From Promethearchaeota archaeon (lineage in GTDB: Archaea > Asgardarchaeota > Lokiarchaeia > Sigynarchaeales > SOKP01): DNA of 20,131 nt. Position 1 is the first letter of the stretch; every line of letters begins with the position of its first letter. Made by a program: the position numbers and the translations under genes. Below are positions 7,378 through 20,131 of this stretch, piece by piece. The notes beneath the pieces were generated by a model. That model made no database searches and was not told the origin of the DNA. It was given only the letters and a program-made list of their open reading frames with translations. The stretch lies in assembly GCA_030620005.1 (NCBI GenBank), contig JAUXAJ010000062.1, positions 1 to 20,131 on the forward strand, read 5' to 3'.

Positions 7378-7962
7378 ATGGAGAGAAGGGAAAGAGTTAA
7401 AAGAGCTTTTCACTTTGAAAGACCAGACAGAATACCTTTTTTAGGTTTAACCTTTAAATCAGATTTTTTTCCAATTGAAGCCCACGAACCAATATCGTGG
7501 CAACCAACTAATTACCCACCTCATGTTGATGGTGGGGCGCAAAGAATAGGAAATGCTGCCTTTAGAAGGGATGTTTACGATTGGAAGCCAGAAATTAGAG
7601 AAAGATTAAACTCTCCTGAAAAATGGTGGGAGAACCCTCACGATAGTATAGATGAATTTAAAGTTATTTGGCATTCTTCTGGCACTAAAAGTGATGACAA
7701 AACCATGGGACATCCTATTAAGGGACCATTTCAAGACGATGGCTCTGGAGAAGGTTGGGAGGCGTTTGCCAATTTCGAATTCCCAGATGCATTTAATCCG
7801 AATCGTTATGAGGAAGTAAAATCTGGAAAGTGGAAATCGATGGCCGAGGATCGGTATCTCTTTGGATCAACTGGTTCTGGTGGACTTTTTAACGAGTGTT
7901 CTCAGATGAGAGGATTTAATAACTTTTTATTCGATTTGGCAAGTAATCGATACAATAAATAA
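7378..7962 (+). CDS. Uroporphyrinogen decarboxylase-family protein, N-terminal half, ending at a premature TAA
   Basis: The start MERRERVKRAFHFERPDRIPFLG is the classic opening of UroD-superfamily proteins (ERV..AL...PDR.P). The superfamily includes haem-pathway decarboxylases and corrinoid methyltransferases of the MtaA/MtbA and demethylase type. The frame stops at TAA 7960-7962 after 194 residues, in the middle of the barrel, just after FNNFLFDLASNRYNK. The next codons (VKELIDSILSFNLTHIEKLKEY) continue in the same frame with the helix expected at that point. I read both halves as one gene of about 389 residues. The substrate is unknown; divergent UroD-like proteins in anaerobes are more often methyltransferases than haem enzymes. 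Confidence 0.75.
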   Translation: MERRERVKRAFHFERPDRIPFLGLTFKSDFFPIEAHEPISWQPTNYPPHVDGGAQRIGNAAFRRDVYDWKPEIRERLNSPEKWWENPHDSIDEFKVIWHSSGTKSDDKTMGHPIKGPFQDDGSGEGWEAFANFEFPDAFNPNRYEEVKSGKWKSMAEDRYLFGSTGSGGLFNECSQMRGFNNFLFDLASNRYNK

Positions 7963-8547
7963 GTTAAAGAATTGATTGACTCGATTCTCTCGTTCAATTT
8001 AACGCACATCGAGAAGTTAAAAGAATATTGTCCCCCATTAGATTCGATAATGATGGCTGATGACCTCGGCACTCAAAAATCTACTTTCATGAGTCCAAGA
8101 ATCTTTCGAAAGTTCTTCAATGAACCATTCAAAAAATTAACCAAATTAACTCACGATTTAGGAATGGATTTTATCCTACATTCTTGCGGAAATGTGTTAG
8201 CCCTTATTCCCGAATTTATCGAAGTTGGCATGGATGTCTTGGAATTTGATAGCCCTCACATGACGGGCGTGGAAAATTTCAAGCGTTTTGCCGAAGAGAG
8301 AAAAATCGCATTTTGGCTGAGTTCAAACATACAATCCACGTTTGTAAATGGAACGCCTAAAGACATTGAGGAAGAGATTAAATACTACATGAAAGAAATA
8401 GGAAATAACGAAGGAGGACTTGCCATTTACGAATACACTAGTTTTGATGCGATAAGAGTTCCAAAACAGAACATTAGAGCTCAAAGAAAAGCTACTTTCA
8501 AATGGGGGAATTATAACGAAAATGGTGTCATTGAATGGTTAGCGTGA
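7963..8547 (+). CDS. Uroporphyrinogen decarboxylase-family protein, C-terminal half, in frame after the TAA
   Basis: This is the in-frame continuation of the preceding gene. If translated separately it would start at TTG 7972, without a Shine-Dalgarno sequence. It holds the C-terminal half of the UroD barrel: ADDLGTQKSTFMSPRIFRKF, then HDLGMDFILHSCGNV (the family's HSCGN block), then EVGMDVLEFDSPHMTG. The His-x-Cys pair in HSCGN is where corrinoid-linked methyltransferases of this superfamily bind zinc, which is suggestive of a methyltransferase but not proof. Neither half should fold alone, so the gene is either dead, read through, or mis-sequenced at one base. An LLM oxidoreductase gene follows after 121 bases on the same strand. 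Confidence 0.7.
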   Translation, partial: VKELIDSILSFNLTHIEKLKEYCPPLDSIMMADDLGTQKSTFMSPRIFRKFFNEPFKKLTKLTHDLGMDFILHSCGNVLALIPEFIEVGMDVLEFDSPHMTGVENFKRFAEERKIAFWLSSNIQSTFVNGTPKDIEEEIKYYMKEIGNNEGGLAIYEYTSFDAIRVPKQNIRAQRKATFKWGNYNENGVIEWLA

Positions 8548-8668: not shown

Positions 8669-9778
8669 ATGGTAGATTTAAAATTTGGAGTTCAAATATT
8701 TTTTTCTCAATCTTACGACCTTGTTCGGAAAAAAGTTTTTACAACAAGTAAAGAATGTTGGGACTCTATATGGCTTCCAGATCACTTAAGTGGCATTCCT
8801 GGAGGGGCTATTGACGATTTCCTATGTTTGTGGCCAATGCTTGGTTCGTTCGCAGAATTAGCGAAAGGAAAGACTCTTGGATCGGCAGTGACTGATCCTC
8901 ATAGGCTTCATCCGGCGGTTTTAGCTCAGATTGCTACGACAATAGATCATATTTCGGGAGGAAAGTTCATCTTGGGCATTGGAGCAGGAGAAGGCATGAA
9001 TTTTAAAGCCTACAACATCCCATACGATCACGCTGTAACTAAAATGTCGGAGTCTATAAGACTAATGAAACAATTCTGGAAGAAAGGCAAGAGAGTTACT
9101 TTTAAAGGGACATGCTATCAAACAAATAAAGCAGTATTGCTTCCTAAACCTGTGTCTGACATCCCCATATGGGTCGCAGCAAACGGTCCGAAGACTAGAA
9201 AAATGACGGGCGAAATCGCAGATGGCTGGATGCCGTTAGGTGTTTTTACAGGCACTTATAAAGCCGGCAAGGAAGAGATTATTGAAGCTATTAAAAAGGA
9301 AGGACGAGATTTGGATAAATTCACGTTCGCAAATTTCCAGAGAATTTACATGAACGACGATGAGAATAAAATTGGCGAATACTTGAATGGTATAAAAACC
9401 AGTCTTGCATTACAACCCCGGGTATTAAAAAAAATGGGTTATTGGAAAGAAGAATTTGAGCACCTTTATAAGGAAGCTACAGGATTCAATAGCGATGATA
9501 TGAGCCTGCTAGTATTTGATCGAGAAGATGTTGGAAAATTTGATCTTAAAAAATTAGAAACTATTGTAGGTCAAATCCCTGAAAAAATAATACGCGAAAA
9601 TACCATGGTAGGAACAAAAGAAGAAATTATTAAAAAAATCCAGGATTACATTGATGTGGGAGCAAAATACTTCATTTTAGAAATTCAGAACGGCGTCTCG
9701 AGTCGGAACGCTCCCTTCACGTATTTTGACGTGTCACGGATTATTAGCGAAGAAATAATACCTTCTTTTAGAAACTAA
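8669..9778 (+). CDS. LLM-class (luciferase-like) flavin/F420-dependent oxidoreductase
   Basis: This 369-residue cytosolic TIM-barrel protein belongs to the bacterial-luciferase-like superfamily. In archaea its members mostly use coenzyme F420, for example methylene-tetrahydromethanopterin reductase (Mer) and F420-dependent alcohol or sugar dehydrogenases. The beginning KFGVQIFFSQSYD, the DSIWLPDHL strand, the HPAVLAQIATTIDHISGGKFILGIGAGEGMN block (residues 87-117) and PIWVAANGPKTRKMTGEIADGWMP (about 165-188) are all typical. The C-terminal GTKEEIIKKIQDYIDVGAKYFIL is also family-like. It has the right length for a full protein. The substrate and the choice between FMN and F420 cannot be decided by eye. 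It lies downstream of the UroD-like gene on the same strand and is convergent with the GH57 gene after 29 bases. Confidence 0.85.
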   Translation: MVDLKFGVQIFFSQSYDLVRKKVFTTSKECWDSIWLPDHLSGIPGGAIDDFLCLWPMLGSFAELAKGKTLGSAVTDPHRLHPAVLAQIATTIDHISGGKFILGIGAGEGMNFKAYNIPYDHAVTKMSESIRLMKQFWKKGKRVTFKGTCYQTNKAVLLPKPVSDIPIWVAANGPKTRKMTGEIADGWMPLGVFTGTYKAGKEEIIEAIKKEGRDLDKFTFANFQRIYMNDDENKIGEYLNGIKTSLALQPRVLKKMGYWKEEFEHLYKEATGFNSDDMSLLVFDREDVGKFDLKKLETIVGQIPEKIIRENTMVGTKEEIIKKIQDYIDVGAKYFILEIQNGVSSRNAPFTYFDVSRIISEEIIPSFRN

Positions 9779-9807: not shown

Positions 9808-11046
9808 TTACAATTTTTTCAAATTTTTTTTTGTAATCGCATACAACTCCATCAAAAGAAGGCCCTGGTAATAAGATATAGAATCAAAATAACCCTCTCC
9901 TGCGTCGTTTCTCCCGTGTTCTAAAGCAAGTTGCGCGTTAAGTGCAGACCTCATCAAAAAATCCACGCCTTTATAAATTAAGTTTGGACTCCAAGTTCCT
10001 CTCCGTGGATTGGCCCACCAAATTGTGCAAGAATAAATTCCACGATCGTAGAAATATCTGGCAGTATTATAATAGGATTCAACTTCCCAATTCTCGGTTA
10101 AATCTAGATTTTCTGCCAATTCCAATAGTTTGTTAAGGCTTTTCATGATTTTCCAATAATACTTGTGGACATTATTATCCGGATGATTCCACAGAGGATA
10201 TGGCACTCCTGCTTTAATGTCATCGTAAGAAGTACTCCAACTCGACTCCCTTGGTGTTATTTTTTTCTTGCTTATTGGAAAATATTGGTCCAATTCGGAA
10301 ATAAATACAATTTCTATATCATCACTATCGTTAATCAATTCAAGGGTTTTTCCTAAAAAGGCTTTCTCGTAATTTTTTATATGATGGCCGAATGTTTCAC
10401 CATCCATAGCTGTCAGAATGAATTTTTTATTATTCTTCTCCTCGTCTTTATACATGTCTTTGATTTGTTTCACGAATTCCTTTGCTGTAATTTTTTTAAA
10501 AGAGATCTTGTTGCTTAAAATATCGTCCCTAAAAAATAACTGAAGTCCATTAGGAGAACAATATATTTTATCGTAAGGCCAATCTATGGGACAGGCAATT
10601 CCACTCATGACTATCCATTTATAACCTAATTCACGGACAATTTTAGCTACATTAGAAGAAATTGCCAGTTCTGGCGGAAAAAACCCTTTTCGTTCCCAAA
10701 TATTGCCAAATTGTTGACGATTTATTTCTTCATTCATTCGAATTTGGCGATATACCTCTTTTTTTGGAATCAAGGGAAGTAGTGGATGGTATTTTCCCGT
10801 TCCCACAATTTCTATCTTACTTTCAGAAACCAAATTTTTTAGCAATTCCATTGTATCGGCCATTCCATACTTGTAAAGCAAATCAATAAGAATACCGTTA
10901 ATATTCAGGCAGAACTTCGCATTTTCGTGCTGATCTATCATTGAAAATAAAGGTTTATAGCATTCCTTATCAATAATTCTTAAAATGTTGATTTCTTGGG
11001 TAGGAGGTTGATAAATGTGAACTAATGGAGCCCAATAGGTTGTCAT
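9808..11046 (-). CDS. Glycoside hydrolase family 57 protein
   Basis: This 412-residue protein without a signal peptide probably acts on alpha-glucans in the cytoplasm (amylase, 4-alpha-glucanotransferase or branching-type activity). All main GH57 motifs are visible. Motif 1 is HIYQPP (residues 10-15). Motif 2 is GTGKYHPLLPLIP (82-94). Motif 3 is GFFPPELAIS with the catalytic nucleophile E126. Motif 4 is TAMDGETFGHH with the acid/base D215. The C-terminal helical region contains WNHPDNNVHKYYWKIM and TIWWANPRRGTWSP. At this length it is closer to the short GH57 members than to the 600-residue amylopullulanases. The exact activity is not assignable. The ATG start is the first in frame. It runs in the same direction as the DUF998-like gene, 101 bases away, with a T tract between them. 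Confidence 0.85.
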   Translation of the reverse strand: MTTYWAPLVHIYQPPTQEINILRIIDKECYKPLFSMIDQHENAKFCLNINGILIDLLYKYGMADTMELLKNLVSESKIEIVGTGKYHPLLPLIPKKEVYRQIRMNEEINRQQFGNIWERKGFFPPELAISSNVAKIVRELGYKWIVMSGIACPIDWPYDKIYCSPNGLQLFFRDDILSNKISFKKITAKEFVKQIKDMYKDEEKNNKKFILTAMDGETFGHHIKNYEKAFLGKTLELINDSDDIEIVFISELDQYFPISKKKITPRESSWSTSYDDIKAGVPYPLWNHPDNNVHKYYWKIMKSLNKLLELAENLDLTENWEVESYYNTARYFYDRGIYSCTIWWANPRRGTWSPNLIYKGVDFLMRSALNAQLALEHGRNDAGEGYFDSISYYQGLLLMELYAITKKNLKKL

Positions 11047-12199: not shown

Positions 12200-12256
12200 G
12201 GAAAATGTGTTAAATTAAATTATTAAAAAAATTTTTAAAAAAAAATAGGTGAAAGT

Positions 12257-12724
12257 ATTATTCAAAAGGAAAAAGACATCTTCATAACTTCTGGTATCGT
12301 ATCAGCTTCCTTCAATTTTTGGGTCGGATTATGGATGGATAAATTTTACGATGGCTTGAAAGAAAAAAGATTTATAGGGAGTAAATGCTCTAAATGTGGA
12401 AGAGTCATGGTTCCACCGAGAAGTAGATGTGGGAAATGTTTTGCTAAAGCTGAAGAATTTGTTGATCTTCCTGAAACAGGAGTTCTAAAAAATTTTACGA
12501 TAACTCCATATAAAATCAACGAAAAAAGGATAAAAAACGTGAAAAGGGACACCATTATTGGGTTAGTGAAATTAGACGAAGCGGATACAGCCATGGCACT
12601 TCCTATCATTAGTGCAAATCCAGGAAGTTTAACTGACGACGTGAAAGTGAAAGTAGTTTGGGCGGAAAAAACTAAAGGAGCCCCTAAAGACATTAAAGGA
12701 TTTGAACCAATTGGAGGTGGATAA
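12257..12724 (+). CDS. DUF35 Zn-ribbon/OB-fold acyl-CoA-binding subunit, probable non-ATG start
   Basis: DUF35 proteins carry a rubredoxin-like zinc ribbon and an OB fold and act as partners of thiolase-fold enzymes, as in the archaeal thiolase/HMG-CoA synthase complex and the bacterial Ltp2 aldolase. The ribbon cysteines are in CSKCGRVMVPPRSRCGKC, the OB fold follows from LPETGVLKNF, and the end has the usual VVWAEKTKGAPKDIKGFEP block. The first ATG is at 12335 (129 residues), but the frame upstream is open and reads DIFITSGIVSASFNFWVGLW. This is the N-terminal strand and helix expected in DUF35 proteins ahead of F..GLKE..FIGSKC. No ATG, GTG or TTG exists there. AGGTGA at 12247 sits four bases before ATT 12257 and seven before ATT 12260, so an ATT start or a mutated start is inferred. 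The gene overlaps the signal for the next one. Confidence 0.75.
   Translation: MIQKEKDIFITSGIVSASFNFWVGLWMDKFYDGLKEKRFIGSKCSKCGRVMVPPRSRCGKCFAKAEEFVDLPETGVLKNFTITPYKINEKRIKNVKRDTIIGLVKLDEADTAMALPIISANPGSLTDDVKVKVVWAEKTKGAPKDIKGFEPIGGG
12713..12720 (+). promoter_or_regulatory. Shine-Dalgarno sequence for the first thiolase-like gene
   Basis: GGAGGTGG lies inside the last codons of the DUF35 gene, six bases before the GTG start at 12727. It fixes this unusual GTG start and implies translational coupling. The identical octamer precedes the second thiolase-like gene at 13849-13856. Confidence 0.7.
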
Positions 12725-12726
12725 GA

Positions 12727-13863
12727 GTGGAAAAAGTAGGAATAGTAGGATTTTATCAAGTAAAACCAGGTCTAGATGTATTGATGAGCCCTTATGAAAT
12801 GATTTTTACAGCTGTAAGAGGTGCTTTAGATAATGCGGGGCTAAAAAGAAAGGATATTACAACAGTAATATCTGCTACTAACGATTATTACGACGGAAAA
12901 ACCATATCAAACACTTTTAAAGTGGAAGCAGGAGGTGCTTACATGAAAGACGAAAGCAAAGTGGAAATGGACGGAGCTCATGCCGCAATGTACGGTTTAT
13001 ATAGGATTTTATCTGGCAATCATAGGTTAGCAATGGTTTATGGGTTTAGCATGCCTTCTTGTTATCCGTATGAAATTGCGAGAATTTTAGAATTAGATCC
13101 TACTTTTGATAGGCCAACTAATGTAATAAATCCTTATACTGCTGGTGGACTTCAAATGAAAGCGTACATGAAAGCATATGGGGTTGGCGAAGAAGATATT
13201 GCTAGGGTTGCTGTAGAAAACCTAAAAAATTCGGCTAAAAATCCTTTAGCATTGCCAGAGGCCCAAAAGTCCAATATCACCGTTCAGGACGTTTTAAATT
13301 CCGAAGTTTTAAGTGTTCCGCTAAAAAAGTTAATGTACCCGATGCTTTGCGATGGAACGACTGCGTTAATTTTAGCTCCAGAAAAACAAAGCTTAAAAAT
13401 TACGGATAACCCCGTATGGATTACAGGTGTTGGACATTGCCAGGAAACATATTATTTGGGCGATAGAGATCTAAGCCTTAGCGTTTCAATGGAAAAAGCT
13501 GCCGAAAAAGCGTATAAAATGGCGGGAATAAGTGATCCTAAGGGTGAAATTGATGTAGCAGAAATATTTGGACATACATCATGCGAGGAATTAATATTAG
13601 CAGAGGCCGCAGGTTTGCGTGAAAAAGGAAAAGGCATTATCCTTTTAGATGGTGGTCCTGCTTTAAATCCGTCTGGAGGTCCTATGAGCGCATTTACTCC
13701 GTGTGCTTGCGGTTTGACAAGAATAGTTGAAGCCGCTAAACAAATTCGGGGTGAAGCGGAAGGTCATCAAGTTTCGGGGGCTAAAAAAGCCATTGCTTCA
13801 GGGCAAGTAGGCTTTTGTGCTCAAAATAACATAATATATGTATTAGAAGGAGGTGGAAAATAA
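12727..13863 (+). CDS. Thiolase-fold protein lacking the catalytic cysteine (subunit 1)
   Basis: This 378-residue protein belongs to the thiolase/SCP-x superfamily, whose members make or split C-C bonds next to a CoA thioester. The fold is recognisable from SPYEMIFTAVRGALDNAGL, the LSGNHRLAMVYGFSM strand, EEDIARVAVENLKNSAKNP, the MLCDGTTALILAPE block and the C-terminal LNPSGGPM. The nucleophile site reads KVEMDGAHAAM (residues 79-88), with Gly83 where thiolases have Cys. The GHPxGATG motif is FTPCACG (323-329), with Thr324 for His. It is therefore unlikely to be a normal thiolase and may be a structural subunit or a retro-aldolase-type enzyme. The GTG start is fixed by GGAGGTGG six bases upstream. 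Its TAA directly abuts the ATG of the second thiolase-like gene, suggesting a 1:1 complex. Confidence 0.8.
   Translation: MEKVGIVGFYQVKPGLDVLMSPYEMIFTAVRGALDNAGLKRKDITTVISATNDYYDGKTISNTFKVEAGGAYMKDESKVEMDGAHAAMYGLYRILSGNHRLAMVYGFSMPSCYPYEIARILELDPTFDRPTNVINPYTAGGLQMKAYMKAYGVGEEDIARVAVENLKNSAKNPLALPEAQKSNITVQDVLNSEVLSVPLKKLMYPMLCDGTTALILAPEKQSLKITDNPVWITGVGHCQETYYLGDRDLSLSVSMEKAAEKAYKMAGISDPKGEIDVAEIFGHTSCEELILAEAAGLREKGKGIILLDGGPALNPSGGPMSAFTPCACGLTRIVEAAKQIRGEAEGHQVSGAKKAIASGQVGFCAQNNIIYVLEGGGK
13849..13856 (+). promoter_or_regulatory. Shine-Dalgarno sequence for the second thiolase-like gene
   Basis: GGAGGTGG lies within the end of the first thiolase-like gene, seven bases before ATG 13864. 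It is the same octamer used by the first gene, fitting matched, coupled translation of the two subunits. Confidence 0.7.
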
Positions 13864-15108
13864 ATGGCTAAAGTACAACCAGCGGTAATAAGTTGCGGTT
13901 TCAGCGAACACGCATCCAAGCGTTCGGATGTTAATATGGCTGAATTAGCGAACGAGGCTATAGAAGATTGCTTGAAAAAGGCTGAATCTGTAGGGTGGAA
14001 AGATATTGATGCAATCATAAACGGAAACATGCCTGCATTTGAAGGTGCTAACATGCCCGAGTTGTGGATGGGAGATCATATGGCGGCTTACAACAAACCC
14101 ATGTTAAGAGTTACCACTGGAGGAACGACGGGTGGGTCTGTTTGCATTGCTGGTTATTATAGCGTCGCGTCAGGCATGTACGATACGGTCTTGGCAGTTG
14201 CTTTCGAACAGCAATCTTGTGGAGATACATCAATAGGTTTGGCATCAGTAGCATTAGGAGAATTTTCAATATTTCCATTTATAGGTTATACTTATGATAA
14301 ATTGGTTTCAAACTTTGGCGCTGGAGCGGCGATTGGAGTTGCGTCCTATCAAGCCATGAATTACATGAGCCGAAGTAAAGCAACTGAGGAAGATCTTGCC
14401 CGCGTTGTAGTTCAAAATAGGAGAAATGCCGCTAAAAATTGGTGGACACATTTAAAAATGCCAACAATCACAATTGAAGACGTGTTAGATACTCCATACA
14501 TATCATTCCCTTTAAGATTTGGAATGGTGTGTCCTGCCTCTGACGGGGCGTGTGCCATGTTAATTACAACCGAGGAAAAAGCAAAGCAAATCGCAGATAT
14601 TCCCGTATATATTAATGGTGTCGCAAGTTATAGTAATGAATCGGCTATTATAGGCGTTGATTGTGGAGGTGCTGGGCAGGTTGATCCTTGCGAGCAATTG
14701 GGAGCAATGAAGTCAGCTGAAGTGGCTTATCTGCAAGCGGGAATTTCTTTCCCTAATAAAGAAATTGATTACGCAGAAGTGTATTCTCCATTTCCAAACC
14801 AAGAATTAATGTGGGTTGAAAGAATTGGGTTTTTTGAAGAAAACACGGCCCCAGAAGCGTATAAAAACGGAGTGACTGCGTATAACGGGGAATTACCGGT
14901 GAATTGTTCTGGAGGGGTTAACGCTACAAACGCGATCGGGGCGTCCGCCATGGAAAGACCAGCCGAAGCAGCCCTCCAAATCATGGGAAAAGCAGGAAAT
15001 CAAGTTCCTAAAACGGTTCATACAGCTTTAGGACACGGATGGGGAGGATCTATTAATTTTATTACTCATGTGGTCATGTCTGACGAACCACAAAGAAAAT
15101 TTAGGTGA
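13864..15108 (+). CDS. Thiolase-fold protein lacking the catalytic cysteine (subunit 2)
   Basis: This is a 414-residue thiolase-superfamily protein of the archaeal thiolase-paralogue type. The nucleophile loop reads LRVTTGGTTGGSV (residues 81-93), so Gly87 replaces the reactive Cys. A cysteine does follow at 94, but in the wrong place. EVHDxF, common in SCP-x-type thiolases, is EVYSPF (Y307), and the GHPIGATG motif is TNAIGAS with N356 for His. The end keeps AAEAALQIMGKAG-like packing (PAEAALQIMGKAGNQVP) and a GHGWGGS loop at about 390-396. The family would act on a CoA ester held partly by a DUF35 partner, and both neighbours in this operon are DUF35 genes. The tyrosine at 307 and the loss of Cys recall Ltp2-type aldolases, which split side chains without thiolysis. 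The start abuts the upstream stop, with a good Shine-Dalgarno sequence. Confidence 0.8.
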   Translation: MAKVQPAVISCGFSEHASKRSDVNMAELANEAIEDCLKKAESVGWKDIDAIINGNMPAFEGANMPELWMGDHMAAYNKPMLRVTTGGTTGGSVCIAGYYSVASGMYDTVLAVAFEQQSCGDTSIGLASVALGEFSIFPFIGYTYDKLVSNFGAGAAIGVASYQAMNYMSRSKATEEDLARVVVQNRRNAAKNWWTHLKMPTITIEDVLDTPYISFPLRFGMVCPASDGACAMLITTEEKAKQIADIPVYINGVASYSNESAIIGVDCGGAGQVDPCEQLGAMKSAEVAYLQAGISFPNKEIDYAEVYSPFPNQELMWVERIGFFEENTAPEAYKNGVTAYNGELPVNCSGGVNATNAIGASAMERPAEAALQIMGKAGNQVPKTVHTALGHGWGGSINFITHVVMSDEPQRKFR

Positions 15109-15114
15109 GGTGAG
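15109..15114 (+). promoter_or_regulatory. Shine-Dalgarno sequence deciding the start of the second DUF35 gene
   Basis: GGTGAG begins immediately after the TGA of the thiolase-like gene and ends seven bases before ATG 15122. This supports 15122 over the GTG at 15068, which would overlap the upstream gene by 41 bases. Confidence 0.6.
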
Positions 15115-15121
15115 AAAAATA

Positions 15122-15646
15122 ATGCCATTGCCAGAATATATAAAAAAGGTTTATAAAAGAACTAGAACAATGCCAGGGATATGGAATCTACCATTATATA
15201 AGTATAAATTCAATTTGTCAAGAACTAGAGTTTTTCTTAACGGATTGAAGGAAGGGCACATATTAGGTTTAAAATGTAGATCATGTAACACCGTATCATT
15301 TCCGCCCAGATTAATTTGCGGTAGATGTCTAGTTAAGCCCGATCAATGGGTAAGGCTGCCTGAAACGGGTTCAGTTGCCACTGGTTCAGCTACATACGAA
15401 GCGGACGATAAAGCTCATGAGAGACCACAGCCGGTAATAGCGGTGCGCCAAGACGGTGCAGATACAGTTTGGCTTCACAATTTACCCAAAGATATCGATT
15501 TTCACTCAGTATATGTAGGCATGCCTGTAAAAGCTGTTTGGGCTGAAGAAAGAAAAGGAGCATGGTTGGATATCGATCATTACGAACCAGTTGAAGACCC
15601 GGCCATAGAACTTAACAAGAAAGAAGGACAAAACAGGAATTCATAA
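15122..15646 (+). CDS. DUF35 Zn-ribbon/OB-fold subunit (second copy)
   Basis: This 174-residue DUF35 protein has zinc-ribbon cysteines C52, C55, C66 and C69 (CRSCNTVSFPPRLICGRC) and then the OB fold from LPETGSVATG. It has the usual VWAEERKGAWLDIDHYEP ending and a short hydrophilic tail. It differs from the first copy in its longer basic N-terminus (KKVYKRTRTMPG), so the two are not recent duplicates. Each may pair with one of the two thiolase-like subunits, giving a DUF35-thiolase-thiolase-DUF35 arrangement. DUF35 partners in known complexes channel or hold the acyl-CoA. The chosen ATG has a clear ribosome-binding site; an upstream GTG at 15068 is open in frame but overlaps the previous gene. 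A T tract follows the gene, so the operon may end here. Confidence 0.85.
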   Translation: MPLPEYIKKVYKRTRTMPGIWNLPLYKYKFNLSRTRVFLNGLKEGHILGLKCRSCNTVSFPPRLICGRCLVKPDQWVRLPETGSVATGSATYEADDKAHERPQPVIAVRQDGADTVWLHNLPKDIDFHSVYVGMPVKAVWAEERKGAWLDIDHYEPVEDPAIELNKKEGQNRNS

Positions 15647-15769: not shown

Positions 15770-17395
15770 ATGAGGTTAGATCAAATAGTTAAGATAATCG
15801 CAAGAAATAAAAAAGATAAAGTTGCTCTCGTTGATATAATGGCGGGAGGAAAAAGCATTACTTTTACTGAATACGATCAGAGATGTAATAATTTTGCTAA
15901 TTATGTTATTAACGACTTTAAAATTAATCCAGATGATAGAATCGCTCTTTTATTGGAAAACAGCATAGAAATTTGTGTAGCATATTTTTCAATCCCAAGG
16001 ACTTCTGGAATTGCCGTGCCCTTAAATTATTTCATGTCTAAAAAGGAGATTGAGTACTGTTTGAACGACAGCAAGCCTGTCATGTTAATCTACGGAAATA
16101 GATTTGCTAACGATATAGCGTATTATAAAGAGAAATGTCCTTTTATTAAAGAATTTATTTCCGAAGAAAGATTTGAGATGCTTTGCAAAAAACCTTTTGT
16201 AGGAAGAAGGCTCAATCCCCCTAAAAAACTTACAAGTGAAAATGTGGTATTTATTGCATATACAGGAGGAACGACGGGTTTTCCTAAAGGAGTCATGTTA
16301 ACTCATCAAGGACTTAGTGATAACATGATGAAAAGTACTGAGACTATCTTAAAATCTCTAAAAGAAAAACCAGATTTTAAAGAAGAGGGATTAAAAATGC
16401 TCGATCAAACAATATTAATTCCAATTCCTATTTTTCATTTGGCTGCGATGATAGTTTTTCTAATGTCTTTAAGTGCAGGATACACCATATATTTACACAG
16501 AGGATTTAAGGGTGATAAAATCGTACAATCGATTGACAAATATAAAATTAATCATCTTGTATGCGTGCCAACTAATATTATTAGCCTTATAGAATATTTA
16601 GAATCTGAAGACGCCAAAAAGTACGATTTGAGCAGCCTTACAGCATTAACCTATGGTGCTGCACCTATTTCTCCATCAGTACTCTCGAAAGCTTTAAAAA
16701 TGTTGCCAAATACTAGTTTTCGGCAAGCGTACGGCCAAACGGAATATTCGCCTGTTATCACTCAATTGACTTCTGAAGACCACGAGTTAGCTACGAAATA
16801 CCCAGAGATTTTAAAAAGTGGTGGACGACCTTTAGTGGGTACAGAACTCGCAATTGCCGATGAAAACGGAAATTTCCTTCCTAAAGGTGAAATAGGAGAA
16901 GTTGTTGCTTCTGGAAAATCTATAATGAGGGGATATTGGAATAAGGAAGAATTAACGAATAAAGCCATACGAGAAATTAATGGTAAGATGTGGTTATTTA
17001 CGGGGGATGTAGGATATTTGAAGGAAATTGATGGTAGAGAGTACTTATTCTTAACTGATAGGGCGAAGGACATGATCGTATCGGGGGGCGAGAACATTTA
17101 CCCTAAAGAAATTGAACATGTCATTTATCAAATTGAAGGCGTTAAATTGTGTGCTGTAATTGGAATACCTGACGAAAAATGGGGCGAAGCAGTGGTAGCT
17201 TTAGTCGTCCCAAAAAAAGGGGCCATCTTGAAGGAAGAACAAATAATAAATTACTGCGGGGAATATCTCGCTGGTTATAAAAAGCCAAAAAAAGTAATAT
17301 TTAAAGATGATCTTCCTGTTAGCGCTCAAGGAAAAATTTTGAAAAGAGTGCTAAGAGAAGAATTTTGGAAGGGAAAAGAACGCCAGATACATTAA
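15770..17395 (+). CDS. Acyl-CoA synthetase (AMP-forming, ANL family), probably fatty or aromatic acid
   Basis: This 541-residue enzyme activates a carboxylic acid to an acyl-adenylate and then to acyl-CoA. The core motifs are all present: phosphate-binding loop YTGGTTGFPKG (164-174), the A5-type YGQTEYSP, the ATP-ribose motif LFTGDVGYL, the hinge DRAKDMIVSGGENIYPKEIE, and the C-terminal catalytic lysine in SAQGKILKR (K522). The length and motif forms match long/medium-chain acyl-CoA synthetases, but substrate specificity cannot be read. Arginine codons are mostly AGA/AGG (15 of 19 by hand count), unlike the next gene. The ATG lies 30 bases after an inverted repeat, with a purine-rich leader. 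It probably supplies acyl-CoA to the thiolase-like complex encoded upstream and to the dehydrogenase downstream. Confidence 0.9.
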   Translation: MRLDQIVKIIARNKKDKVALVDIMAGGKSITFTEYDQRCNNFANYVINDFKINPDDRIALLLENSIEICVAYFSIPRTSGIAVPLNYFMSKKEIEYCLNDSKPVMLIYGNRFANDIAYYKEKCPFIKEFISEERFEMLCKKPFVGRRLNPPKKLTSENVVFIAYTGGTTGFPKGVMLTHQGLSDNMMKSTETILKSLKEKPDFKEEGLKMLDQTILIPIPIFHLAAMIVFLMSLSAGYTIYLHRGFKGDKIVQSIDKYKINHLVCVPTNIISLIEYLESEDAKKYDLSSLTALTYGAAPISPSVLSKALKMLPNTSFRQAYGQTEYSPVITQLTSEDHELATKYPEILKSGGRPLVGTELAIADENGNFLPKGEIGEVVASGKSIMRGYWNKEELTNKAIREINGKMWLFTGDVGYLKEIDGREYLFLTDRAKDMIVSGGENIYPKEIEHVIYQIEGVKLCAVIGIPDEKWGEAVVALVVPKKGAILKEEQIINYCGEYLAGYKKPKKVIFKDDLPVSAQGKILKRVLREEFWKGKERQIH

Positions 17396-17509: not shown

Positions 17510-19159
17510 ATGCGTGCTAGTCCGGAAATTGACATTCGTTCGTATCCCTTGGAAAGCTTTGCCACATTATCCACTAATTTCGAATGGAATATTCCCTCAA
17601 CATTTAATATAGGTGAAGCTATATGTGACCGGCATGCTGACGATAAAGCTCGGGTTGCTATCTTCTACGAAGATGATCAAGGAAATGAAGCTAATTATAC
17701 TTTCTGGGATCTCAAGAACCGGTCTAATCAACTCGCAAATCTCCTGAAGGAGCTAGGTGTTGAATCAAAGGATCGAGTGGGCGTCCTTCTTGCAGAGAGA
17801 CCAGAAACAATCGCCTCGTTTGTAGCAGTTTATAAACTTGGAGGAATAGTTCTTTCCATGTCTCCCTTGTTCGGTCAAGAAGCCGTTCGGTACAGGTTAA
17901 AAGATAGTAGCACTAAGATTCTGATCGTTGAAACAGGGCGTAATGATATAAGACAAATTGCCGAAGAAATTCCTTCTTTACGGCATGTTATCGTTGTAGG
18001 AGAAGGAGAACCCTCTGGTCGAAAAGAGCAAGGATTTGACGAAATTCATGACTTAACTACGAAATTTGAGTTCCCTCTAACTTCGAGTGAGAATCCTGCC
18101 CACATGTTTTACACATCTGGTACAACTGGACCACCTAAAGGTACATTACACGCTCATCGATTTATACTGGGGCATATTCCAAGTTTTCAGCTTTATTTTG
18201 AGTTGGCACCTCAAGAAACCGATGTATTTTGGACTCCTGCTGATTGGGGTTGGATTGGTGCCTTGGGTGATGTTATATTCCCTGCATTGTATTTTGGTAA
18301 GCCGATTCTTGCTTACAGACGAAGTGGTCGATTTAAGCCGCTACGGACTCTTGAACTAATGGAAAAACATCGAATAACATGTGCTTTCATCCCCCCTACA
18401 GCTCTTCGGATGATAAAAAAAACAATAGATCGTCCCGCGAACGAGTACGACTTAAGCCTTCGAGCAATCTCAAGTGCCGGTGAGAGTGTTGGTTCAAATT
18501 TGAAAAAATGGGGAAAAGAAGCGTTAGGTGTTCCGATTAATGAGTTCTATGGTGCAACAGAAGCAAATCTGATTGTAGTAACGTGTTCGGCACTTTTAGA
18601 GAGTCATTCGGGAGCAATGGGAAAACCCTGTCCAGGACAAGTCGTTGAGGTTCTTGATGAAGAAGGAAAGATTCTCCCCATCGGCGAGATCGGAGAGATT
18701 GGTGTTAAGAGCCCTAATCCTGTTCTATTTTTAGAGTATTGGAACAATCCTGAAGCAACCAAACAAAAGTTCAAAGGTTCATGGTTCATGATGGGAGATC
18801 TCGGTTATAAGGACGAGTTTGGATGCATTTGGTTTAAAGCTCGTGCAGACGACCTGATAAAGCAAGCAGGATATAGAATCGGTCCTAGCGAAGTAGAAGC
18901 CGTTATCAACTCACATCCTAAAGTGTTAGAATCGGGAGTCGTTCCGAAACCAGATCTCGTCAGAGGTCACATCATAAAGGCATTTGTAGTCATCAAAAGT
19001 GGGTCTCAACCAAATAATGAATTGAAAAACGAGATCATGGATCTTGTTAAGAATCAACTCGCTGCATATGCTTATCCTCGTGAAGTTGAATTTATCAAGG
19101 AGATACCTAAGACGGTAACTGGCAAAATCATGCGGTATGAGCTTCGGAAAATGATGTGA
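17510..19159 (+). CDS. Medium-chain/acetyl-type acyl-CoA synthetase (ANL family), atypical codon use
   Basis: This 549-residue acyl-CoA synthetase is of the ACSM/acetyl-CoA-synthetase-like branch. Motifs include the phosphate loop YTSGTTGPPKG (201-211), TPADWGWIGALGD (a hallmark of this branch), EFYGATEANL, the GDLGYKDEFGC ribose motif, the hinge KARADDLIKQAGYRIGPSEVE and the catalytic lysine in KTVTGKIMR (K539). It makes an acyl-CoA from a short or medium-chain acid using ATP and CoA. Arginine is coded by CGN in 22 of 28 positions (hand count), whereas the preceding synthetase uses CGN in 4 of 19. This suggests recent acquisition, perhaps from a bacterium. GGAGAGGAAG just upstream gives a good ribosome-binding site for ATG 17510. 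It is not a duplicate of its neighbour. Confidence 0.9.
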   Translation: MRASPEIDIRSYPLESFATLSTNFEWNIPSTFNIGEAICDRHADDKARVAIFYEDDQGNEANYTFWDLKNRSNQLANLLKELGVESKDRVGVLLAERPETIASFVAVYKLGGIVLSMSPLFGQEAVRYRLKDSSTKILIVETGRNDIRQIAEEIPSLRHVIVVGEGEPSGRKEQGFDEIHDLTTKFEFPLTSSENPAHMFYTSGTTGPPKGTLHAHRFILGHIPSFQLYFELAPQETDVFWTPADWGWIGALGDVIFPALYFGKPILAYRRSGRFKPLRTLELMEKHRITCAFIPPTALRMIKKTIDRPANEYDLSLRAISSAGESVGSNLKKWGKEALGVPINEFYGATEANLIVVTCSALLESHSGAMGKPCPGQVVEVLDEEGKILPIGEIGEIGVKSPNPVLFLEYWNNPEATKQKFKGSWFMMGDLGYKDEFGCIWFKARADDLIKQAGYRIGPSEVEAVINSHPKVLESGVVPKPDLVRGHIIKAFVVIKSGSQPNNELKNEIMDLVKNQLAAYAYPREVEFIKEIPKTVTGKIMRYELRKMM

Positions 19160-19336: not shown

Positions 19337-20131
19337 TTATTTATTCTTTCTATAAACTGCCTTTTGAATGATATATTTCATGACTTCGTCCGTGCCGCCC
19401 CCAATCCTTAAAAGTCTCACGTCACGGGCACATCTTTCAACGGGGTATTTATTCGTGTATCCTATTCCACCAAGAATTTGTATAGCTTCGTCACATATTT
19501 TAAATGAATTTTGGCACGCAAAAAGCTTTGCCATTGCTGCTAAATTACCATCTTGTGGTGTTTTTACAGATTTTTCAGTGAGAGCCCTTCCAGCTTCGTA
19601 GGTTGAAACCATTTTAGCAATTTTAAAGTTGATACCTTCAAATTCGCTTATCGGTCTTTTAAATTGAACCCTTTCCATGGAATATTGAATGGCGACATCT
19701 AACGCCCTTTTAGCCACGGCTAACGCTTGAACTGATAAGACCATTCTTTCTGGTCCTAAGAAAGCTTGCAATCCAGAAATAACGGAGGATTTTCCAGTTT
19801 TTCCCGTGCCCGAAGGATCGTTCTTTATTTCTTGGTAAAAAAGCGCATTTTCTTCCGGAACACGAACATTATTGAATTTCATGTGTCCTAAATGTAGCCC
19901 GTGAAGTCCCATCATTTTATATTCTTCAATGACTTCAAATCCATCCCATCCAGATTCAACAACACAAGCGCCGTTCCGACCGTATACAATCATTATGTCT
20001 GCGATACTCCCATTCGTGATAAACCTTTTCTCACCATTTAGGATAAATTCGTTATTTGCCTCGTCTTTTTCGTAAAATGTTCTCATGCGTGATAAATCGC
20101 TTCCAGCATCCGGTTCAGTAAAACAAAAACA
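19337..20131 (-). CDS. Acyl-CoA dehydrogenase (partial, 5' end beyond the window)
   Basis: This flavoenzyme introduces a double bond between C2 and C3 of an acyl-CoA, the first oxidative step of beta-oxidation. The frame is open to the window edge: the residues before the first ATG read FTEPDAGSDLSRMRT, the family's FAD-binding TEPxAGSD motif, so the N-terminal half is simply cut off. Visible parts are LNGEKRFITNGSIAD, YSMERVQFKRPISEFEGINFKIAKM, and LGGIGYTNKYPVERCARDVRLLRIGGGTDEVM near the end. The usual MCAD-type base (EGT) is GGT here, but GPERMVL has a glutamate (codon 19748-19750) at the site used by isovaleryl- and long-chain acyl-CoA dehydrogenases. It is likely active. It converges with the synthetase genes and should use their product. 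Confidence 0.9.
   Translation of the reverse strand, partial: CFCFTEPDAGSDLSRMRTFYEKDEANNEFILNGEKRFITNGSIADIMIVYGRNGACVVESGWDGFEVIEEYKMMGLHGLHLGHMKFNNVRVPEENALFYQEIKNDPSGTGKTGKSSVISGLQAFLGPERMVLSVQALAVAKRALDVAIQYSMERVQFKRPISEFEGINFKIAKMVSTYEAGRALTEKSVKTPQDGNLAAMAKLFACQNSFKICDEAIQILGGIGYTNKYPVERCARDVRLLRIGGGTDEVMKYIIQKAVYRKNK

Follow-up and report, generated by a model that had tools for sequence, protein, structure and literature searches.

The window analyzed here, the whole 20,131-nucleotide stretch of Promethearchaeota archaeon contig JAUXAJ010000062.1, contains two adjacent genes for thiolase-like proteins with a gene for a DUF35 protein on each side. The two open reading frames (ORFs) abut directly: subunit 1 (sub1; 12727-13863, + strand; 378 aa, GTG start) is followed at once by subunit 2 (sub2; 13864-15108, +; 414 aa). 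Sub1 matches Pfam family PF22691, and sub2 matches both PF22691 and PF00108; their best NCBIfam matches are PRK07937 (186 bits; cut-off, 419) and PRK08313 (377 bits; cut-off, 514), respectively. AlphaFold models of the two proteins (pLDDT, 94.8 and 87.9) have the two-domain fold of the thiolase superfamily. The upstream gene, DUF35-A (12335-12724, +), and the downstream gene, DUF35-B (15122-15646, +), each encode a zinc ribbon and an OB fold and match PF12172 (5.1e-11 and 2.2e-9), with PF01796 under its cut-off in both. Both proteins carry the C4 zinc motif C-x2-C-x10-C-x2-C, a pattern termed canonical in the accessible part of PMC12329534. The frame of DUF35-A is open upstream to about position 12239, and since the in-frame segment 12239-12334 (+) resembles the N-termini of Asgard orthologues, the true start may lie upstream at a nonstandard codon. 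The mechanical ORF of DUF35-B begins at 15068, inside sub2; the ATG at 15122, preceded by AGGTGAGG, gives a protein of 174 aa, similar in length to the downstream DUF35 ORFs at Asgard loci (170 to 187 aa).

Thiolases place a nucleophilic Cys at the start of the helix that follows strand 3 and combine it with the His of a GHP motif and the His or Asn of an HDxF or NEAF motif. None of these residues is found in either subunit of the window. A preliminary description made from the sequence had reported Gly in place of the Cys in both, and this reading held: the motifs it quoted, KVEMDGAHAAM and RVTTGGTTGGS, occupy residues 78 to 88 of sub1 and 82 to 92 of sub2. G87 of sub2 (14122-14124, +) aligns in HMMER with the nucleophilic Cys of 6esq, 7yvy, 7pxp (BbsB), and 6hsj, and a MAFFT alignment places G83 of sub1 (D82-G83; 12970-12975, +) in the column where two relatives have their Cys. 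In the models, the helix following strand 3 begins with G83 in sub1; in sub2, G87 precedes it by two residues. Conservation was scored in 206 sub1 and 204 sub2 sequences, the 120 sub1 database proteins including the window's own (P0001). Position 87 of sub2 is Gly in all 204, position 83 of sub1 is Gly in 203 and Ala in 3, and position 82 of sub1 is Asp in 205. Conservation of this extent argues that the Gly is not a product of chance; the losses are genuine and ancient rather than an artifact of sequencing.

The other two catalytic positions separate the subunits. An invariant Arg shared by both (R332 in sub1, R365 in sub2) anchors the GHP position, which is N356 in sub2 (14929-14931, +) and F323 in sub1, with T324 at the Pro (13693-13698, +). 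The GHP His had been described as lost in both subunits and replaced by Asn in sub2 and Thr in sub1; the loss and the Asn were borne out, but the sub1 residue is Phe by this anchoring, and the single-sequence alignment that gives Thr is shifted by one, the position being non-His either way. N356 is Asn in all 202 scorable sub2 sequences (2 gaps), whereas position 323 of sub1 is variable (N in 110, F in 38, H in 21, and Y in 16 of 206). At the HDxF position, on which the preliminary description is silent, sub2 reads Y307-S-P-F (14782-14793, +), with Tyr in all but one of the 202 scorable sequences (201; the exception has Phe, and 2 more sequences have gaps); sub1 varies there and in the window reads F281-G-H-T (13567-13578, +). 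The two subunits are thus not equivalent, since in the window sub2 alone has the Tyr found in aldolases of this fold. Tyr occupies position 281 in 16 of the 206 sub1 sequences; half of these, 8 bacterial ones (loci L033, L034, L035, L042, L043, L044, L049, and L050), combine it with His at 323.

An ordinary thiolase that draws its nucleophile from elsewhere, either C94 of sub2 or C326, C328, or C364 of sub1, would be in keeping with the presence of cysteines in both subunits and with the Cys found at position 364 of sub1 in 179 of 206 sequences. However, C94, which the preliminary description had singled out as a residue that an alignment might place at the nucleophile position, is seven residues away from G87 on the downstream side, and only 3 of 204 sequences have Cys there; the seven columns surrounding each nucleophile position are free of Cys in all 206 plus 204 sequences; and both window subunits have, in addition, lost the His of HDxF and that of GHP. 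We consider such a thiolase extremely unlikely, and alignment columns together with conservation rule out C94 and C364 as replacement nucleophiles.

To place the pair among its relatives, 87 loci were assembled, comprising the best 80 of 573 relatives from a genome scan by sub1 patterns and 7 plasmid loci; loci gathered in this way are no census, and the counts are to be read accordingly. Rows scoring less than 280 bits to either profile were dropped, giving 86 sub1 genes above 280 bits; L007 and L045 thereby have no sub1 row, L038 has two, and L045 nevertheless shows the pair with a DUF35 gene on each side. Sub2 follows sub1 in 82 of the 86, and the other four (L037, L058, L065, and L068) are cut by contig ends. 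Exactly two DUF35 domains lie within 1.9 kb in 75 of the 82 pairs. Of the other seven, one has three (L010, where the third belongs to a neighboring thiolase-like gene) and one, at a contig end, has none; a single domain is seen in five, four of them at contig ends and the fifth being the haloarchaeal plasmid locus L004. The 75 fall into three layouts: one domain on each side of the pair in 38 (Asgard, Solincola, Anaerolineae, Thermodesulfobacteriota, and others), both upstream, in tandem or fused, in 34 (mainly Actinobacteria, also Myxococcales and Deltaproteobacteria), and both downstream in 3. A reduced form of the module is possibly represented by L007 (5081-7679), on a Rhodococcus qingshengii plasmid, where a shrunken sub1-like ORF (304 aa, 74 bits) accompanies sub2 and one DUF35 domain.

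The combination of two Cys-less thiolase folds and two DUF35 domains was also found in metagenome-assembled genomes (MAGs) or plasmids of Actinobacteria, Chloroflexota, Thermodesulfobacteriota, Spirochaetota, Elusimicrobiota, Myxococcota, and Cupriavidus. The two-subunit design that the preliminary description envisaged as an archaeal version is neither peculiar to archaea nor unprecedented, since the ltp3/ltp4 pair is already on record as a heteromeric aldol lyase in the available text of PMC6678751. Within the phylum, the sub1 profile at an E value of 1e-30 matches 140 of 148 sampled genomes, paralogous thiolases included, and among the matches listed a copy of at least 580 bits occurs in at least 23 of the 148, with a profile built partly from such sequences. 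Several genomes carry more than one pair (three in G001, two each in G002 and G004), and the locus nearest to the window pair is L008, from a Lokiarchaeia MAG; in keeping with an Asgard contig, the homologues that carry names are from Promethearchaeota.

Sub1 and sub2 are co-inherited. Their pairwise identities correlate across 80 loci with an r of 0.95, a value as high as which was reached in none of 1,000 permutations. In a tree of 49 rows, unrooted, of modest support, and with open forks and flagged long branches, sub1 forms one side of a branch (87/95) and sub2 one side of another (72/46; 75% of 200 bootstrap trees); the two groups have largely the same inner groups, and Asgard paralogous pairs (L094 and L096) keep the rule. 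The residues, the four-gene module, its co-inheritance, and the fold were all established by computation.

Assayed enzymes of this fold suggest what the pair may do. The steroid aldolase Ltp2-ChsH2 (6ok1) pairs a thiolase fold with a DUF35 partner, and an alignment of Ltp2-like rows shows Gly in place of the Cys together with the Tyr of YDHF. The bile-acid aldolase Sal-Shy (9myr), likewise built with DUF35, has Gly for Cys, a Tyr base, and an amide, Gln352, at the place of the GHP His, much like N356 of sub2. The available part of PMC12329534 states that the Tyr of YDHF in Ltp2 or YDCY in Sal takes the β-hydroxyl proton and that the Sal variant Y302F has no activity. Y307 of sub2 stands at this catalytic-base position (Y294 in Ltp2, Y302 in Sal) next to G87, whereas F281 of the window sub1 does not provide the base. 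Because sub2 joins Gly for Cys with Tyr for the HDxF His, as the assayed aldolases do, the DUF35-sub1-sub2-DUF35 assembly is probably a retro-aldolase for β-hydroxyacyl-coenzyme A (CoA) in which sub2 is catalytic and sub1, in Asgard archaea, is a retired partner. The likeness to Ltp2-ChsH2 raised in the preliminary description, with its Cys-less thiolase folds, DUF35 partners, and acyl-CoA context, gains support from these comparisons.

From these residues we infer a heterodimer, its reaction, and the roles of individual groups, as follows. The four genes at 12335-15646 would yield one complex, DUF35-A:sub1:sub2:DUF35-B, whose architecture would follow the thiolase dimer of Ltp2-ChsH2 or Sal-Shy, except that its two protomers differ from each other and each is capped by its own DUF35; the known systems differ in that Ltp2 and Sal have homodimeric cores and the DUF35 of Shy is fused to a MaoC hydratase. 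A CoA thioester would sit in the former thiolase pocket of sub2, with G87 where the nucleophile was; Y307 would take the β-hydroxyl proton, the Cα-Cβ bond would break, and the enolate of acetyl- or propionyl-CoA would be reprotonated by another group, leaving a shorter acyl-CoA and an aldehyde or ketone. With N356 in the place of Tyr344 of Ltp2, the acid may be water or a sub1 residue reaching across the dimer interface, one candidate being D82, which is nearly invariant and adjoins the position of the lost nucleophile; alternatively, the reaction may be a different one. The decayed sub1 site of the window and most of its Asgard relatives would give sub1 a partner role comparable to that of a chain-length factor.

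Three other functions were weighed against the same residues. A decarboxylase or Claisen-type enzyme acting on malonyl-CoA-like or β-keto-acid substrates, with no acyl-enzyme, would agree with TbSLP, which has YDCF and slowly decarboxylates malonyl-CoA, and with the β-keto acid cleavage enzyme (BKACE) near the pair in three Asgard and two bacterial loci. On the other hand, Sal, with the same Tyr, made no acetyl-CoA from malonyl-CoA (both observations are from the portion of PMC12329534 at hand), and sub2 lacks His at the HDxF and GHP positions, though H391 stays in 169 of 204 sequences; we judge this function quite unlikely. A noncatalytic carrier of acyl-CoA or lipid, as the family name lipid-transfer protein suggests, is unlikely as well: the database name and the lost site of the window sub1 favor it, but the residues of the sub2 pocket hardly vary across the archaeal and bacterial sequences examined, a constancy that a mere carrier would not need.

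A subunit of a C-acyltransferase or HMG-CoA-synthase assembly of the PhlABC, MucABC, or archaeal AACT/HMGCS kind, in which DUF35 staples the thiolase fold to a second enzyme, finds some footing in the appearance of 6esq, 5m3k, and 9vbo among the close folds. Yet a scan of 19 window proteins revealed no HMG-CoA-synthase-like protein, a working Cys in 9skm is suggested by its title, which mentions a C88S mutant, and the window has two different thiolase folds, both without Cys, so that this alternative is very unlikely. Both the archaeal AACT/HMGCS/DUF35 complex (6esq) and the benzoylsuccinyl-CoA thiolase BbsAB (7pxp) differ from the pair in keeping the nucleophilic Cys, HDxF, and the His of GHP or GHA. 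ST0096 of Sulfolobus tokodaii (4yzo; one protein sequence in four chains), the best PDB sequence match of sub2, is Cys-less in the alignment but keeps HD and GHP.

Further Cys-less thiolase folds were observed in the collection. A third type lies near the pair at four Asgard loci (L010:2378-3610, L016:15184-16440 [-], L023:8517-9773 [-], and L094:3633-5063); it has SGGATGG or TGGATGG, with Gly for Cys, keeps HDAF and the His of GHA or MHA, a combination different from those of Ltp2, Sal, and the pair, and has DUF35 beside it in all but L094. L019:12783-14033 (-), of which the HDAF motif alone was read, is probably of the same type. Ltp2-like proteins with YDAF for YDHF at L071:7350-8591 (-) and L076:10720-11946 (-), each with a long ORF nearby that matches DUF35 weakly (32 bits), suggest another aldolase variant.

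The closest described counterpart is the actinobacterial Ltp3-Ltp4 pair. Three actinobacterial loci were scanned with PRK07937 (for sub1) and PRK08313 (for sub2), families that we take to stand for Ltp4 and Ltp3; the pairs of L075 and L005 exceed the cut-offs, and that of L028 does not. At the plasmid loci of Streptomyces, Tsukamurella, Nonomuraea, and Nocardia, a DUF35 protein of 299 to 340 aa (counted as two domains) precedes the pair, and in the Tsukamurella and Nocardia loci an LLM F420-type enzyme lies near it. The actinobacterial form matches ltp3/ltp4 in that this gene order agrees with Rv3521 (presumably a DUF35 protein)-Rv3522 (ltp4)-Rv3523 (ltp3). These designations, with Rv3520c as an F420 oxidoreductase, are given in the accessible text of PMC6429209. 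As far as the available parts of the sources go, Ltp3 and Ltp4 are described as aldol lyases for C24-branched sterol side chains, on the basis of Wilbrink et al. 2012 (PMC6678751, PMC6593523, PMC6273163, and PMC8708139), as forming a heteromeric aldol lyase (PMC6678751), and as indispensable for sterol side chains that are branched but not for straight ones (PMC6273163).

Like Ltp3-Ltp4, the window combines two Cys-less thiolase folds side by side with two DUF35 domains, shows Gly, YxPF, and Asn in the motifs of sub2, has an acyl-CoA synthetase nearby (as several loci do), and has subunits that join the same two tree groups (with modest support). It differs in having a single DUF35 on each side rather than tandem or fused domains upstream, in F281 of sub1 where four actinobacterial rows have His, and in having no orthologue of the LLM F420 enzyme. 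Judged by sequence, the window pair is an Asgard variant of this known, little-characterized type of pair with two DUF35 domains. A literature search, with most subscription papers outside its reach, returned no description of the pair in Asgard archaea.

Neighboring genes were tabulated from single-linkage clusters with annotated representatives at 20 Asgard loci, the window included. An acyl-CoA synthetase lies near the pair in 10 of the 20. Next come a crotonase-type hydratase and a cluster comprising CrtI-like flavoenzymes and Fer2-type flavin reductases (7 loci each), an acyl-CoA dehydrogenase and a pyridoxal phosphate-dependent threonine-aldolase-like enzyme (6 each), an iron-containing alcohol dehydrogenase (Fe-ADH; 5), and an aldehyde:ferredoxin oxidoreductase (AFOR; 4), with AFOR also at 2 Anaerolineae loci. 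On the strand of the module, L008 and L009 have synthetase, hydratase, and flavoenzymes downstream of it, and AFOR lies on the opposite strand. A canonical thiolase cluster lies near the pair in five bacterial loci and in none of the Asgard loci. This gene set suggests activation, desaturation, hydration, aldol cleavage, and aldehyde oxidation, and the hydratase, synthetase, AFOR, and Fe-ADH at other loci fit an aldehyde product. It resembles the anaerobic steroid clusters of Sterolibacterium, for which the text available of PMC6678751 proposes aldolytic side-chain cleavage and lists a phytoene-dehydrogenase-like gene and an aldehyde dehydrogenase. A nitronate-monooxygenase-family flavoenzyme is also found near the pair in six Asgard loci (L012, L013, L016, L017, L018, and L023) and in Tsukamurella.

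The same neighbors bear on the reverse reaction, an aldol ligase that would join acetyl- or propionyl-CoA to an aldehyde or ketone, fed by neighboring alcohol and aldehyde enzymes, and form 3-hydroxyacyl-CoA. One active site could in principle run in both directions, and Fe-ADH and AFOR can supply or remove aldehydes; however, the synthetase, dehydrogenase, and hydratase neighbors look catabolic, and the actinobacterial homologues are reported as catabolic in the portions seen of PMC6678751 and PMC6273163. The ligase thus retains a small but appreciable probability.

Several observations weigh against the proposed retro-aldolase and its kinship with Ltp3-Ltp4. The general acid of the assayed enzymes, Tyr344 in Ltp2 or Cys304 in Sal, has no equivalent in sub2, which has N356 and P309, and P309 takes the place of both the oxyanion His of Ltp2 (His296) and the catalytic Cys of Sal. 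The pair and four Ltp2-like rows form separate tree groups, so that Y307 may be convergent; a common origin with Ltp2 was considered and set aside, as an unrooted tree with long branches cannot tell whether the Tyr arose once. Both window subunits score under the NCBIfam cut-offs given above. At haloarchaeal L004, which has one DUF35, sub2 has Phe for Y307, and at the eight bacterial loci that keep Tyr281 and His323, sub1, and so both halves, could be active. Synthetase, dehydrogenase, and hydratase are divergent from the module at L016, L021, and L051, and neither a hydratase nor an AFOR or other aldehyde oxidoreductase occurs among the 19 window proteins scanned, which have no CrtI-like gene either. 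No Ltp3/Ltp4 structure or assay turned up in the literature search, subject to the same limit of reach. Finally, according to the available part of PMC10398937, M. neoaurum with ltp3 or ltp4 deleted still forms 4-HBC, another enzyme, Atf1, making that aldol cut, a result that weighs weakly because a different bond is cut.

A broader view, which we offer as tentative, is that an ancient heterodimeric retro-aldolase, with one live and (in Asgard archaea) one retired site and a DUF35 clamp for each half, might run aldolytic β-oxidation in Asgard archaea and anaerobic bacteria, including the cleavage of branched acyl chains to ketones, and that the actinobacterial sterol cutter might be a specialized offshoot. 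A branched β-carbon would not be oxidizable to a ketone, and the tertiary β-hydroxyacyl-CoA would instead be cut into acetyl- or propionyl-CoA and a ketone; the branched substrates might be isoprenoid-type or other methyl-branched acyl chains, as hinted by the CrtI-like flavoenzymes nearby, and the aldehyde from unbranched substrates would go to AFOR. If the retro-aldolase assignment is right, the named but mechanistically little-described ltp3/ltp4 pair becomes a broad family of clear architecture, with a predicted catalytic subunit and residue, and Asgard archaea, which to our knowledge are not sterol eaters, may have an aldolytic route for acyl chains that ordinary β-oxidation cannot cut. 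Database labels for these genes, acetyl-CoA C-acetyltransferase and lipid-transfer protein among them, would then mislead metabolic reconstructions. In the papers seen, no description was found of the regular two-plus-two architecture, of the conserved sub2 site beside the freely drifting sub1 site, of the spread beyond sterol degraders, or of the neighboring aldehyde enzymes.

Downstream of the module, family matches identify two AMP-binding acyl-CoA synthetases (15770-17395, +, and 17510-19159, +, the second acetate-CoA ligase- or MbcS-like) and an acyl-CoA dehydrogenase (19337-20086, -) whose open frame runs to the window end. Upstream, the window encodes an LLM F420 enzyme (8669-9778) for which Rv3520c suggested a link to the pair, but the locus matches do not support it: at an E value of 1e-20, a single locus of the 87, L055, has an ORF that it matches (72 bits), and the enzyme from Tsukamurella finds matches in 2 of the 87 (L002 itself and L006). 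An archaeal Pus10 (12-1367, -), an MFS transporter (1509-2873, -), and a GH57 glycosidase (9808-11046, -) are ordinary neighbors with no evident link. The gene at 7378-8547 (+) is split by an in-frame TAA at 7960-7962 into two halves in the same frame, of which the second matches URO-D (PF01208) and the first has no Pfam match; it may be a broken gene, a sequencing error, or two proteins.

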